Shown here: in pieces, positions 41,927-46,031 of the stretch
Numbering within the stretch: position 1 is the first letter of the stretch
Layout: each line of letters opens with the position of its first letter
From: Agrobacterium fabrum str. C58
Lineage (GTDB): Bacteria > Pseudomonadota > Alphaproteobacteria > Rhizobiales > Rhizobiaceae
Direction: 5' to 3'
DNA length: 64,000 bases
Assembly (NCBI RefSeq): GCF_000092025.1
Contig: NC_003064.2
Coordinates: 434,001 to 498,000 of the forward strand
Notes under the pieces: generated by a model
Database searches by the model: none
What the model saw: the letters and a program-made list of their open reading frames with translations, nothing else
What the model was told of the DNA's origin: nothing
Translations under genes and position numbers: made by a program

Positions 41927-42673
41927 CTAGGCAGAAAAGAGTGAAGGCGTGGCAACATCCGCCTGCATACGGGCCATTAGCCTCTCATATTCTTTTTCCG
42001 GAGCGCCATAGGTTATGGTGGCGACCTCTTCCAAAATGCTGCGATTGATGATCCGGACGTTTCCGCGTCTGGCACGAATAGCATGGATGCCTTCTAGAAC
42101 ATGTAATTCGTTGGTGATCCCCGGCCGCCTTACCCCAAGAACTGTCGAGAGAAATTCATGGGTAATGGGCAGATTATCCGTATCGAGCCGATCATGACAC
42201 ATCAGCAGCCAGCGCGCGAGCCTCTCCCGCAGACCATATTGCCCATTTGCAAGGACAAGATGCCCGACCTGAAGCAGGCAGATATTGATATAGCCCAGCA
42301 AGAGCTCGCGTAAGCGCGTGTCCTCGTCCATTGCCCGTCGTATTTCAACAGTCGTGATCAGGAAGCCCCGACCGCCCACACACATGATGGTTTCACTCGG
42401 CGTCGTTTCCGCGCCCAGCAGAGCGGGCCAGCCTGTGATACCCTCTCGCCCGACCAGCACAGTCTCAATGCTCTTGCCACCGTCATCACGGACAATGGTC
42501 GATGCCAAGCCGCTTTCGATAAAACAGAGATGTGAAATAAGCATGTCAGAGGTGACGAGCCGATGTCCCATGGGCAAATCAACGGGCTCCATTCGCGATA
42601 CAAGCCGCGCGAGCCCTTCTTTGCCGATGATTTGCAATAGTCGATTATAAACGCAAAAACCTGATTCAAGCAT
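41927..42673 (-). CDS. Crp/Fnr-family transcriptional regulator (copy 1)
   Basis: 248 residues. A cyclic-nucleotide-binding-type beta roll covers about 20-130 (MGHRLVTSDMLISHLCFIESGLAS, VLVGREGITGWPALLG), a dimer helix about 140-160 (GLRERLARWLLMCHDRL), and a C-terminal HTH follows with THEFLSTVLGVRRPGITNEL. It lacks the FNR cysteine cluster and an obvious cAMP-binding signature. The VRRxxxT recognition helix is shared with the paralogue at 44166. A GTACG-N4-CGTAC palindrome lies 84 bp upstream of its start, suggesting autoregulation. The effector is unknown. Confidence 0.92.
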   Translation of the reverse strand: MLESGFCVYNRLLQIIGKEGLARLVSRMEPVDLPMGHRLVTSDMLISHLCFIESGLASTIVRDDGGKSIETVLVGREGITGWPALLGAETTPSETIMCVGGRGFLITTVEIRRAMDEDTRLRELLLGYINICLLQVGHLVLANGQYGLRERLARWLLMCHDRLDTDNLPITHEFLSTVLGVRRPGITNELHVLEGIHAIRARRGNVRIINRSILEEVATITYGAPEKEYERLMARMQADVATPSLFSA

Positions 42674-42756: not shown

Positions 42757-42770
42757 GTACGTTTCCGTAC
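42757..42770. promoter_or_regulatory. Palindrome GTACG-N4-CGTAC, site 1
   Basis: GTACGTTTCCGTAC has 5-bp arms and a 4-bp spacer, the geometry of Crp/Fnr-family half-sites. It lies in the gap upstream of the minus-strand crp/fnr gene ending at 42673. On the plus strand a TATGAG -10-like hexamer at 42792-42797 would put the site near -41. Confidence 0.65.
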
Positions 42771-43089
42771 AAACGCGCGGGAACTCGATTCTATGAGTGA
42801 CGAGACGGGCCAAAATTCCAAACTCAGGCGCATGTTCGACGCAACATCACAACTGAACTGTCGTCGGGTCTCCCCGCCCCGCTCGAAATTCTGGTTGATG
42901 GCCGGACGAGCGGGCCTAACGCCTTGGCCAACCCGCAACGTCTGCCACCTGCTTCCAGTCCGGAAGCGTCAGCACGTCATAGCTTTTGTCGCAGAACTCC
43001 TCTGAGACGACTTAGCCCAGCCGAGCTGCAGAAGGAACAAGCTGTTCCCATCATGGTTAGGGACCACCGGACAGGGAGGTTCGAACACC
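42771..43089. other. Intergenic stretch without a supported gene
   Basis: A 70-codon plus-strand frame starts at 42793 and is open to 43005, but its sequence is arginine-rich and unfamiliar. A second frame over the same DNA is equally open. No protein is claimed. It may be the leader of the 43090 gene. Confidence 0.35.
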
Positions 43090-43392
43090 ATGCAAAAGAA
43101 CATCGAATACCAGATCATGGCCCATGAAAACGGGTGGGCCGTTGTCGTCTGTGACGTCATAGGGGGCACTTACCCCAGCAGACACCTTGCTCTTGCGGCC
43201 GCAAAGCAGTTGGAGAGCGAGGTAGTTTCGACGGAAGAAGCGGAGCACTTGGGTGCAATTGCGCATCTGACCCTAACTGATGCAGTCGCATCCGACCGGT
43301 TGCGAATCTCGTGCCAGATGACGGTGGCTGTGTCTTATCAGGTGGATATCCCTTGCGACGCGGAAGCGGAGAAGTCAGCGTTCCATCGTTGA
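43090..43392 (+). CDS. Small hypothetical protein
   Basis: 100 residues. The start has GGGAGG 9 bases upstream. The sequence begins MQKNIEYQIMAHENGWAVVVCDVIGG, recalling small alpha-beta proteins that read GWAV followed by a helix (TYPSRHLALAAAKQLESEVV). The rest is alternately hydrophobic with two cysteines. I do not recognise the family. It lies in the Crp/Fnr island. Confidence 0.55.
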   Translation: MQKNIEYQIMAHENGWAVVVCDVIGGTYPSRHLALAAAKQLESEVVSTEEAEHLGAIAHLTLTDAVASDRLRISCQMTVAVSYQVDIPCDAEAEKSAFHR

Positions 43393-43792
43393 TCGCTGGA
43401 CCATATCTGAGAGCCGGGAGGGGCTAGGTTGGGCGGCGGAGGTGCATTGTCCAAACGCGTCCGGGATACGTTCCCGTAGAAAAACAGAATCCACCACGAT
43501 GGCAGGAGGGAAATATGAGGAACTCACAGATCCTGACCGTTTTCCACGTGCGGTCGTGCCGCCTCGACCGCCATAATCTATGGCGAAGGGGCGAGAATTT
43601 CAGATCGAGCCCTTCAATCGTCGGCGCCCAACCTGCGCGACTTGGTACTCTTCGCGGCGCAATAGTCTTTCTGATACAGTCGTCCCTCGTACTTATTTCG
43701 ATTAAATTGGGTGACAGAAGCTGGAATCTCATCGATCGAGCGTTATGGTTGGTAACAGGCACACGCATGCCGTAGTATCCGAGGAGCAAAGC
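43393..43792. other. Intergenic stretch with one doubtful frame
   Basis: A plus-strand frame at 43515-43775 has AGGAGGG 5 bases before its ATG but encodes an arginine- and serine-rich 86-residue product with no recognisable family, and it runs into the next gene region. A minus frame is equally unconvincing. No protein is claimed. Confidence 0.35.
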
Positions 43793-44152
43793 GTGGAGAC
43801 TGTCAAACGCCTCACCGTCGCAATCATCGGCATGGCCGATACCTTAACATCGCAGATCAGGACAGCCTGGTGTCACGCCCAGATCGACCTTGAGGGACCT
43901 TACTCCGCCAGCTTCATAGAACGTGAAGATGTTCTCAAATTCGTCGCCGCGATCATCGACGTTCGCTATGAGGCCGACGTCATGCTGCGCCTGACCGAGC
44001 AACTTGACGGAGAAGCCATCCCGTATCTTTTTTTCGTGCCGGAAACGGTTATCGACAGTGAGCCTGGACCTTTTGTCCTATCCGGACGTTCAGAAGACAT
44101 CGCGAATATTGTTTCCGCCTTAACCGCGCAAGGCGGAGGCGTTCGGCACTAA
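43793..44152 (+). CDS. Degenerate receiver-domain protein
   Basis: 119 residues. GTG 43793 follows GAGGAG by about 9 bases. The fold resembles a CheY-like receiver: VAIIGMADTLTSQIRTAW (beta1-alpha1), then LKFVAAIIDVRYEADVMLRL with D56 at the usual phospho-acceptor position, and AIPYLFFVPETV as beta4. The paired N-terminal acidic residues are missing (IGMAD). It is 13 bp ahead of the second crp/fnr gene, so it may act with it. The receiver reading is by pattern only. Confidence 0.6.
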   Translation: METVKRLTVAIIGMADTLTSQIRTAWCHAQIDLEGPYSASFIEREDVLKFVAAIIDVRYEADVMLRLTEQLDGEAIPYLFFVPETVIDSEPGPFVLSGRSEDIANIVSALTAQGGGVRH

Positions 44153-44165
44153 AGCGAGGCATCTT

Positions 44166-44930
44166 ATGCTGAAACGACCTGACGGCCATAATGAAGCAAA
44201 TATTTTGCTGTCTCTTTTGCCCGATGATGTTCGACATGACGTTATGAGCGTGTGCAGACCGGTCAAGTTAAACTTGGGTGATATGCTGATTTCCGCAGGT
44301 GCACCTATCGAGCGTGTTTTTTTTCCATCATCCGGCATAGCCTCCATTGTTGTGGTTTCCAGATCGGGGCGTAAGACCGAAGCGGGACTCGTTGGAAAAG
44401 AGGGGTTTGTGCCAACGGGAGCCTTGGCTGGCGCACAAACAAATCTGACCGAAATAGTAGTGCAGGCCCCGGGCGAAGCGCTTTTCGTGGAAAGAGGATC
44501 GTTTGACGCACTTCGCGCACGACATAGAATTTTTTCGGACATCCTGGTCTGCGCTGTACACGCCTCAAGAACACAGGTGGAATGCACCGCTTCTTCCAAT
44601 GCTACGCAGTCTGTAACGGAGCGACTCGCCCGGTGGCTTCTGATGTGCCACGACCGCGTACACGGAGATTGCTTGCGCCTGACCCACGACTTTTTATCCA
44701 CAATGCTGGCGGTGAGGCGCGCGAGTGTGACAGATGCCCTGCACGTTCTCGAAAGCCACGGGTTTATCCGTTCCGAAAGAGGAAGAATCACGATTAGGAA
44801 CCGCGAGACTCTCGAAATATATGCACATGATCTCTATGGTTTGCCCGAGGAGGAGAATAATCGCATGCTCGCCCACTTTCTGCGCGAATACCGGTCCGAC
44901 GTTGCGCTCGGCGACTTAACCGCTTCCTAG
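44166..44930 (+). CDS. Crp/Fnr-family transcriptional regulator (copy 2)
   Basis: 254 residues. The beta-roll domain shows LGDMLISAGAPIERVFFPSSGIASIVV and TEAGLVGKEGFVPTGALAG. The dimer helix has TERLARWLLMCHDRVHGD. The HTH is LTHDFLSTMLAVRRASVTDALHVLESHGFI, very close to copy 1 at 41927, so they are paralogues of one subfamily. No FNR-type cysteine cluster is seen. A palindrome 46 bp after its stop is placed to control the next gene. It could form part of a stress or redox circuit with the neighbouring sigma factor. Confidence 0.92.
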   Translation: MLKRPDGHNEANILLSLLPDDVRHDVMSVCRPVKLNLGDMLISAGAPIERVFFPSSGIASIVVVSRSGRKTEAGLVGKEGFVPTGALAGAQTNLTEIVVQAPGEALFVERGSFDALRARHRIFSDILVCAVHASRTQVECTASSNATQSVTERLARWLLMCHDRVHGDCLRLTHDFLSTMLAVRRASVTDALHVLESHGFIRSERGRITIRNRETLEIYAHDLYGLPEEENNRMLAHFLREYRSDVALGDLTAS

Positions 44931-44975
44931 AACGGCGAGGGTCAATAGACCGCACCTTCGCTGCTTTCATCATTG

Positions 44976-45017
44976 GTACGCTTCCGTACATTTACCTTTA
45001 CTTTTTTCTCTATAATA
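44976..45017 (+). promoter_or_regulatory. Promoter with palindrome GTACG-N4-CGTAC (site 2) and consensus -10
   Basis: GTACGCTTCCGTAC (44976-44989) is followed by TATAAT (45011-45016). A start site near 45023 puts the palindrome centre at about -40.5 to -41.5, the class II activator position of Crp/Fnr proteins, replacing a poor -35. It is directly upstream of the small gene at 45072. Confidence 0.7.
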
Positions 45018-45071
45018 TAAATGCATCATCCTTCACGCTGTGAAGCGCCGAGCGCGTTTCAAGGAGGTGAA

Positions 45072-45299
45072 ATGCACGAGCATCACTATTATCAACGTTC
45101 CGGAATTTTTCTGAACGAAGACATTAATGTCGTGAAGTCTGCGTACGAAACTGTTCTGTCCGCCGAGCCAGATTCCGCTTTATCGGCAACGGACGTCGCC
45201 CGTTATGTCCTGAAAATGTATGATCGTGGTGTTGTTGATCCCTCGAAACTTCAAGGGCTCGCAGTTCTCTATTTTCGAACAAAATTACGTGTCGGCTGA
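45072..45299 (+). CDS. Small hypothetical protein, putative Crp/Fnr target
   Basis: 75 residues starting MHEHHYYQRSGIFLNEDINVVKSAYETV with AAGGAGGTG just upstream. The sequence is helical and mildly acidic, ending YFRTKLRVG. The helical segment ATDVARYVLKMYDRGVVDPSKL might be a small binding or dimerisation unit. The family is not recognised. Its promoter carries the second GTACG palindrome and a TATAAT -10, so it is a good candidate target of the Crp/Fnr regulators beside it. Confidence 0.6.
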   Translation: MHEHHYYQRSGIFLNEDINVVKSAYETVLSAEPDSALSATDVARYVLKMYDRGVVDPSKLQGLAVLYFRTKLRVG

Positions 45300-45423
45300 T
45301 GGCAGGCAACCATCTCGCCCAACTCAGAGGCGGTTTCTCGTTAAGGCGTTTCTACTTTTTCGGGACAGCGCGACCGTTTTTCTGGTTTTACTACCCAGTT
45401 TTCGGGTGCCTCGCAGGCACAAG

Positions 45424-45966
45424 TCAATGGGGTGTTCCCACTCGATCTAGCTTTTGCCGTAGCGACTCCCTTGCCCTGTTGACACGACTTTTGATGGTGC
45501 CCACGCGGCAACCACAAATGGCCGCGGCATCGGAATAACTTGTTCCTCCGGCTATGAGCAGCAACGCTTTTTTCTGATCTTTGTCGAGTTCAAGGATGGC
45601 TCGCATCACTTCTTGGTGCTGCAGACGCCATTCCTGGTCCGCAGGAATAGACATTGATTGCTCTATACCGACCGGCAAACCAACACATTCCCGTCTGGAC
45701 ACCTTGTAGCGAGTGCAGAAAGTATTGCGCAAAATGGTGAAGAGCCACGATTTCAGTGCTGTGCCGGGGGTAAAGCCCTGCAACGATCGAAATCCCCGCA
45801 ACATTGTCTCCTGCACAAGATCGTTGACATCATCTTCGTTTCTGACGAAGCGACGCGCAAAAGCCGTCAGGGCTGGTGCCAGATCCGCAATGCCGCTCCG
45901 CAAAACCTCAAGCTGCGCTTCGGTCAACGTGTTCCCAGGCGCTCCACTCACAGCGTGCTTGGCCAT
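45424..45966 (-). CDS. ECF sigma factor, EcfG-like (general stress group)
   Basis: 180 residues with region 2 (FVRNEDDVNDLVQETMLRGFRSL, then FTPGTALKSWLFTILRNTFCTRYK) and region 4 (LLLIAGGTSYSDAAAICGCRVGTIKSRVNRAR). The GGTSYSDAAAICGCRVGTIKSR block is that of the EcfG/ECF15 general-stress sigma factors of Alphaproteobacteria. No nepR or phyR is adjacent, so it is probably a secondary EcfG paralogue. Catalase and other stress genes lie downstream and a palindrome of the GTACG type lies 52 bp upstream of its start. Confidence 0.9.
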   Translation of the reverse strand: MAKHAVSGAPGNTLTEAQLEVLRSGIADLAPALTAFARRFVRNEDDVNDLVQETMLRGFRSLQGFTPGTALKSWLFTILRNTFCTRYKVSRRECVGLPVGIEQSMSIPADQEWRLQHQEVMRAILELDKDQKKALLLIAGGTSYSDAAAICGCRVGTIKSRVNRARESLRQKLDRVGTPH

Positions 45967-46017
45967 TTTCCCATCCTTTCACTAAGTGGGAAATGCCTAC
46001 GTGTCGGCTTGGTTGCT

Positions 46018-46031
46018 GTACGCCAACGTAC
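46018..46031. promoter_or_regulatory. Palindrome GTACG-N4-CGTAC, site 3
   Basis: GTACGCCAACGTAC lies 52 bp upstream of the start codon of the minus-strand sigma factor gene. The arms are identical to sites 1 and 2 and the spacer differs. No convincing -10 hexamer was found at the class II distance here. Confidence 0.6.

Follow-up and report, generated by a model that had tools for sequence, protein, structure and literature searches.

A 14-bp palindrome, GTACG-N4-CGTAC, occurs in three exact copies spanning 3.3 kb of a 64-kb stretch of DNA from Agrobacterium fabrum str. C58 (contig NC_003064.2, positions 434,001 to 498,000; hereafter the window, whose own coordinates are used below). It stands among two paralogous genes for Crp/Fnr family regulators (crp1 and crp2), a small gene, and a gene for a non-canonical EcfG-like sigma factor of the extracytoplasmic function (ECF) type. 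We consider it probable, at roughly three chances in four, that the palindrome is the operator of a Crp/Fnr subfamily with a VRRxxxT recognition helix, which would act on it to activate the sigma gene, its own gene and small genes. The sites are conserved, stand at fixed spacings from promoter-like elements and co-occur with the Crp subfamily. In the mechanism that we propose, a Crp dimer, most likely that of crp1 and possibly that of crp2 too, would bind the palindrome on some signal and would control its own gene, the plasmid-borne sigma gene and the small neighbouring genes. At the sigma gene the palindrome directly adjoins the -35 element of an EcfG-like promoter, so activation from a class II-like position is most likely, and the Crp protein may feed into a secondary branch of the general stress response. 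The features concerned are as follows.

41927..42673, minus strand: crp1, Crp/Fnr family regulator (HTH_Crp_2 at 42.6 bits, cutoff 27, and annotation; WP_010974710.1 in NZ_CP079857.1)
42757..42770: operator 1, GTACG-TTTC-CGTAC, its nearest end 84 bp 5' of the crp1 start
44166..44930, plus strand: crp2, paralogous Crp/Fnr family regulator (HTH_Crp_2 and cNMP_binding, and annotation)
44976..44989: operator 2, GTACG-CTTC-CGTAC, 83 bp 5' of the small gene by coordinates
45011..45016, plus strand: TATAAT, candidate -10 element starting at the 22nd base after operator 2, read from the sequence with an inferred start site
45072..45299, plus strand: small gene of 75 aa, 3' of operator 2
45424..45966, minus strand: non-canonical EcfG-like ECF sigma gene (Sigma70_r2 and r4_2)
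45992..45995, minus strand: CATT, candidate -10 element of the sigma promoter (GCAAC-N16-CATT)
46012..46016, minus strand: GCAAC, candidate -35 element of the sigma promoter, 1 nt from operator 3, a position shared by 16 of 80 unique sites
46018..46031: operator 3, GTACG-CCAA-CGTAC, 52 bp 5' of the sigma gene start

Palindromes in the window and across the genus

The three window palindromes are identical in their arms and unlike in their spacers. In 100 dinucleotide-preserving shuffles of the window the mean number of palindromes was 0.00 and three were never reached. The whole genome (four contigs, 5.67 Mb) holds four exact copies, namely these three and one at C3:280096. This fourth palindrome belongs to a second sigma gene copy with an interrupted reading frame and lies 50 bp 5' of its start as extrapolated. 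A chance origin of the three palindromes is ruled out by the shuffles together with this genome-wide rarity. The earlier note had described three exact palindromes, upstream of a crp/fnr gene, the small gene and the sigma gene, with no other copy in the window; all of this is upheld, and a scan of the whole window found no further copy even when one mismatch was allowed. No exact palindrome lies just 5' of crp2, in contrast to the crp1 promoter.

Exact palindromes were found at 74 places in 29 of 39 congeneric genomes. Searching these genomes for the sigma factor gave 67 matches, 25 of them with the site 23-52 bp 5' of the inferred start and 42 without. The site is present, 48-52 bp upstream, in all 16 matches that reach 55% identity. 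Most of the 42 siteless matches are present as one copy per genome, share about 41-42% identity with the window sigma, and were classed as canonical-type. Identity alone cannot separate the sigma classes, as nine copies of 40-44% identity do have the site. When the 300-nt upstream regions of 30 sigma loci were compared, the site was present at 19 of 20 non-canonical and at none of ten canonical-type loci, the labels being our own and the ten canonical-type copies sharing one clade of the sigma tree. Two control patterns of the same composition were absent from all 70 upstream regions tested in the genus. A named-genome search returned 12 sigma loci, and the eight of 69-89% identity (L048-L055; L and G numbers are our labels for loci and genomes) carry the site in the same position.

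Crp matches numbered 48, in 22 of the 39 genomes, and 18 of these genes have a site within 700 nt upstream: seven at 67% identity or more, eight that face a sigma gene across a common site, and three others. Every one of the matches of at least 67% identity (7/7, the window's own included) has it 81-86 bp upstream. A sigma gene with the site is found in 21 of the 22 Crp-positive genomes against none of the 17 Crp-negative ones, and in the one exception (G018) a site with one mismatch separates the crp gene from the sigma gene. Exact sites number 63 in the Crp-positive genomes against 11 in the Crp-negative ones, where seven of the 11 lie inside a called gene. Of 39 unassigned genus sites, 38 were examined; a rough script placed 18 of these 38 inside a called gene, and these 18 look like chance occurrences. 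Five genomes with a single Crp match (G002, G017, G028, G029, G036) keep the sigma site, so one Crp protein can suffice. The earlier note had staked its reading on enrichment of the motif in promoters of relatives; such enrichment was found, with the site tracking sigma genes and part of the Crp genes in the genus, in the wider family and in the Rhizobium plasmids described below.

Promoter layout and the candidate regulators

At the 80 unique exact sites, an EcfG-like promoter pattern, G[GC]AAC-N17-[ACG]TT, starts 1 nt after 16 sites and 15-16 nt after ten, in one direction, with scattered cases at other distances. At L178 and L200, from other genera, the full CGTT is kept. The EcfG1 motif is given as GGAAC-N16-CGTT (PMC3892343), and the EcfG general stress promoter as GGAAC-N17-20-GTT (PMC6599016). 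Window-type sites resemble these promoters in having G[GC]AAC elements at the same spacing, but the window group differs in its GCAAC and CATT and in the palindrome 1 nt away. At operator 2, the position of TATAAT would place the operator centre near -41, which is a class II position. An operator just before the -35 element or centred near -41 is in the position of an activator.

The two window Crp proteins are 33% identical. Both have a C-terminal Crp-type helix-turn-helix (PF13545 above its cutoff), and the N-terminal beta-roll resembling the cyclic nucleotide monophosphate (cNMP)-binding domain, with the dimer helix, was recognized in crp2 by PF00027 and in crp1 by the AlphaFold model and Foldseek only. 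The crp1 model has a pLDDT (predicted local distance difference test) score of 92, with CRP, FNR and NtcA structures among its PDB matches. The VRRxxxT helix that the earlier note had ascribed to both proteins is indeed common to them, as VRRPGIT and VRRASVT. In an alignment of 47 subfamily members, the equivalent of Arg180 is Arg and position 187 is Thr throughout, while the equivalent of Glu181 is acidic in none and is P, S, A or Q in all 47; the numbering, mapped via alignment to a Mycobacterium tuberculosis-type CRP, is what we take to be that of E. coli CRP. Conservation of Arg180 and Thr187 with a never acidic position 181 fits a half-site other than TGTGA. Cysteines are found at 7, 50, 98, 132 and 159 in crp1 and at 30, 129, 140, 161 and 169 in crp2, and sequence inspection of the two revealed no N-terminal cysteine cluster. 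Of the two proteins, crp1 is most likely the binder of the operator, crp2 being the other candidate. A gene at 43745-44152, of 120-135 aa, stops 13 bp 5' of crp2; its product had no Pfam or NCBIfam match, may by eye be a degenerate receiver domain, and could act on crp2 as an input partner.

Within the superfamily, the operator of E. coli CRP is TGTGA-N6-TCACA, and that of FNR and rhizobial FixK is TTGAT-N4-ATCAA. CRP proper combines Glu181 in the recognition helix with the TGTGA half-site, and FNR proper an N-terminal 4Fe-4S cysteine cluster with TTGAT. The window system shares with these regulators the superfamily, a palindrome that would be bound by a dimer, and a probable class II geometry. 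It differs from CRP proper in the missing acidic Glu181-equivalent (47/47) and in the half-site at these genes, GTACG or GTNCG, and from FNR proper in that crp1 and crp2 have no such cluster and the half-site is not TTGAT. TTGAT-N4-ATCAA was found in none of 49 upstream regions of Crp relatives at one mismatch or fewer. A precedent exists in NtcA, a cyanobacterial regulator of the CRP family whose operator is reported as GTAN8TAC, centred at about -41.5 (PMC3898017). The likeness to NtcA includes a 14-bp palindrome with outer bases GTA...TAC, a similar position inferred for operator 2, and NtcA chains that turned up when the window's Crp family was matched by sequence profile and by fold, the profile match being distant. 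In the window sites, unlike those of NtcA, the inner CG...CG is also fixed, and the phylum and the genes are different. Exact Agrobacterium sites fit the NtcA form whereas Rhizobium GT[CT]CG sites do not: the third base changes outside Agrobacterium (GTC, GTT), so that GTA is broken, unlike in NtcA. The earlier note had called this an operator not known for the subfamily. In titles and the opening parts of abstracts of the open-licence literature we found no description of this operator or of such an input to the stress response. The precedent of NtcA had been missed in the note. The palindrome may serve as a word for finding the regulon of a Crp/Fnr subfamily without a known operator in the literature searched.

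Other genera and relatives of the sigma factor

Among 151 genomes of the family, 30 had a Crp match at E <= 1e-25, two of these in the genus, and 40 stretches were then taken. The four family stretches with a sigma-profile gene besides the Crp gene (L206, L212, L226, L200) all have a site with 0-1 mismatch right upstream of the sigma gene. Five Crp genes (L204, L205, L206, L210, L225) have a 0-1 mismatch site within about 115 bp upstream of the open frame and, L206 excepted, no sigma gene in about 5 kb on either side, which favours Crp, not sigma, as the common partner of the site. In 49 Crp upstream regions outside the genus, eight of which were the sole contribution of a sparse order-level protein search (9 of 150 genomes), GTACG-N4-CGTAC at one mismatch or fewer was found in seven (60 dinucleotide shuffles: mean 0.17, maximum 1) and exact GTNCG-N4-CGNAC in nine (shuffles: mean 0.45, maximum 3); five exact control patterns gave 0, 0, 0, 1 and 0. 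De novo palindrome searches returned GTACGG (2-nt spacer) and TGTCCG (4-nt spacer) as the best words in 41 such regions and TGTACG in all 49, and expectation maximization (EM) gave a likelihood of 33.2 for the 41 real regions against 18.7-20.9 for mononucleotide shuffles.

In six Rhizobium plasmids, obtained after the GTNCG form had been proposed (R. etli IE4771, R. phaseoli R650, R. leguminosarum UPM791, R. lentis BLR27, R. etli CIAT 652 and R. etli CFN42 p42f), an EcfG2-like sigma gene is preceded by GT[CT]CG-N4-CGTAC and then nGCAAC in every case. Annotated Crp/Fnr genes are present at L250 (two), L251 (two), L253 (three) and L255 (one); the annotation of L254 names none, and L252 is unannotated. 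At three of the first five of these loci (L250, L251, L254) an exact palindrome also occurs near small hypothetical genes of the same cluster. Among 14 plasmid relatives of the sigma factor, hand-picked from 50 records spread over a total of 305, five (L256, L261, L262, L268, L269) have the GTNCG site upstream, and at L261 a Crp gene adjoins the sigma gene and the site is exact. No site precedes the sigma gene in Microvirga (L267), but one with a single mismatch stands 139 bp 5' of a Crp gene nearby, and an exact one is found at a small gene.

As the third base varies beyond Agrobacterium, exact 5-bp arms are ruled out as a complete definition of the site. The general form is better written as GTNCG-N4-CGNAC, with GTACG as the Agrobacterium version of the half-site; the half-site of the earlier note was right for Agrobacterium, and GTNCG fits other genera better.

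A tree of 55 sigma sequences (24 with the exact site, 12 with the GTNCG form and 19 without a site within 260 nt) requires eight changes of the site label against 24.8 in shuffles. The window's clade has the exact site in 14 of 14 members and a Rhizobium EcfG2-like clade, that of R. etli, has GTNCG in seven of seven; the two are sisters with support of 93/91. The site is found in none of the 12 members of the canonical-type clade, one of which (L266) has an annotated nepR neighbour. The deepest forks of the tree are weak, and several sequences are on long branches. The window sigma groups with EcfG2-type non-canonical sigma factors, apart from the canonical clade, and is 58% identical to the R. 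etli p42f sigma over 144 residues. Among the 25 NCBIfam matches listed for it, only the ECF superfamily model TIGR02937 was above its cutoff, and no nepR or phyR is annotated beside it in the surrounding 14-kb stretch, in a gene table that describes itself as incomplete.

Among the closest described systems is the EcfG1/EcfG2 hierarchy of R. etli CFN42, which like the window has a plasmid-borne non-canonical EcfG-like sigma factor. The p42f sigma gene RHE_RS26680, with a GTNCG operator and a GCAAC element, is by position and annotation presumably PF00052 of PMC3892343. According to that study, ecfG2 expression is partly independent of PhyR and EcfG1 and is autoregulated, and its motif search for EcfG2 found none; Crp and Fnr do not occur as terms in its main text (PMC3892343). 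The same source noted in 2013 that EcfG is present in at least two copies in half of the completed alphaproteobacterial genomes, with no satisfactory explanation for the additional ones (PMC3892343). With a 14-bp operator, a neighbouring candidate regulator and a conserved promoter layout, the control of such extra copies is now directly testable in strains that are amenable to laboratory work. A broader proposal, to which we would give slightly less than even odds, is that a large VRRxxxT Crp/Fnr subfamily of Hyphomicrobiales has GTNCG-N4-CGNAC as its common operator, and that this operator and the plasmid-borne EcfG2-type sigma genes together give the general stress response a second point of entry, independent of PhyR/NepR. 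A Crp-type sensor would there turn on the non-canonical sigma factor from a promoter in which the -35 element is joined to the Crp site.

Alternative explanations and neighbouring genes

It is doubtful, if worth keeping in view, that the Crp protein represses these promoters instead of activating them. Blocking is possible in the divergent crp-sigma group, where two genes read away from each other and the site between them is 15-16 nt from GGAAC, and a clear promoter was not assigned at crp1; against this, in the close sigma group the site stops 1 nt short of the -35-like element and leaves the -10-like element free, and operator 2 is centred near -41 of TATAAT. Distinctly unlikely is a reading of the palindrome as the site of another regulator, of LuxR, TetR or response-regulator type, that acts over crp and sigma genes, although no systematic search was made for recurrence of another regulator family at these loci. 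Such a regulator would agree with the many subfamily Crp genes, the majority, that have no upstream site. In two genomes (L026 near 1501 and L127 near 2001), moreover, a longer perfect palindrome (GAATATCC...GGATATTC) has the 14-mer at its core and lies between a TetR-type gene, identified by eye, and another gene, so other proteins can use the word; the longer palindrome is probably an unrelated operator. Three observations speak for a Crp protein instead: sites precede crp genes without a nearby sigma gene in several genera, sigma genes with the site occur among the 39 genus genomes only where the Crp subfamily is present, and the geometry and palindromy suit a Crp/Fnr dimer, as in GTAN8TAC of NtcA.

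An RNA hairpin in leader transcripts, for which the inverted repeat could supply a short stem of 5 bp with a 4-nt loop, is very improbable. The palindrome sits upstream of the inferred promoters, and GT[CT]CG-N4-CGTAC of Rhizobium breaks the third pair while the half-sites are kept; the hairpin was rejected on these two points, no fold having been computed. Scarcely credible is an origin by chance or as a repeat spread with a mobile island, even though the sigma gene and its site are present twice on the plasmid (C3:280096). The arms are fixed while spacers and flanks differ, the same arrangement is seen in other genera and with two promoter spacings, and the shuffles, the conservation across the genus and the promoter spacing counts contradict both forms of this explanation.

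Several points weigh against activation by a VRRxxxT Crp protein through a shared operator. The sites are related by descent, and for this reason their counts are not independent; moreover, sites, Crp genes and sigma genes lie side by side, which makes co-inheritance possible. The promoter pattern was chosen after some sites had been inspected, and the stretch at L200, where about 9 kb separate the sigma gene from the Crp gene, was extended so as to take in a site already known. Within the genus, 30 of the 48 Crp genes have no site within 700 nt. Four of the 12 sigma loci of the named-genome search, of 33-45% identity, have none; nine of the 14 hand-picked plasmid relatives, including L266 with its annotated nepR neighbour, likewise lack it. 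Outside the genus, the exact GTNCG site is absent from 40 of the 49 Crp upstream regions, and the nine that have it are not an independent test because some of those regions had themselves suggested the form. In the regions downstream of these 49 genes, GTACG at one mismatch or fewer was found in 4/49 and exact GTNCG in 3/49. Exact GTACG sites outside the genus amount to 24 in 28 Crp-positive against 53 in 120 other genomes, a weak excess (p = 0.026). Upstream regions of other open reading frames gave EM likelihoods of 49.7-66.4, with GC-rich words, against 41.6 for the real set; since they outscore it, the EM likelihood was not counted and the fixed-pattern test was used instead.

Some further genes lie near the sites or the sigma genes. 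The second sigma copy, on the same plasmid (L001:1565-2088; contig C3, near 280159-280683), keeps its operator intact before the interrupted frame, and the next frame after it is, by eye, TreZ-like. In four A. tumefaciens plasmids (H20-H23) treZ is annotated beside related sigma genes, and at L126 near 2001 a site lies 79 bp from a frame resembling, by eye, malto-oligosyltrehalose trehalohydrolase. Trehalose genes may be part of the regulon.

The product of the 75-aa small gene of the window had no Pfam or NCBIfam match at E <= 0.001. Elsewhere, divergent pairs of small genes share one palindrome between them, one gene encoding what we take to be a DUF6894-like protein and the other a 65-aa protein (L123, L129, L136, L047); at L030 and L135 the palindrome has the 65-aa partner only, as the genes were called. 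The 65-aa protein starts with MAD[LIV]F..., and L031 is also among the small-gene loci. At L123, L129 and L030 the small palindrome-linked genes adjoin frames that by eye resemble phage tail genes.

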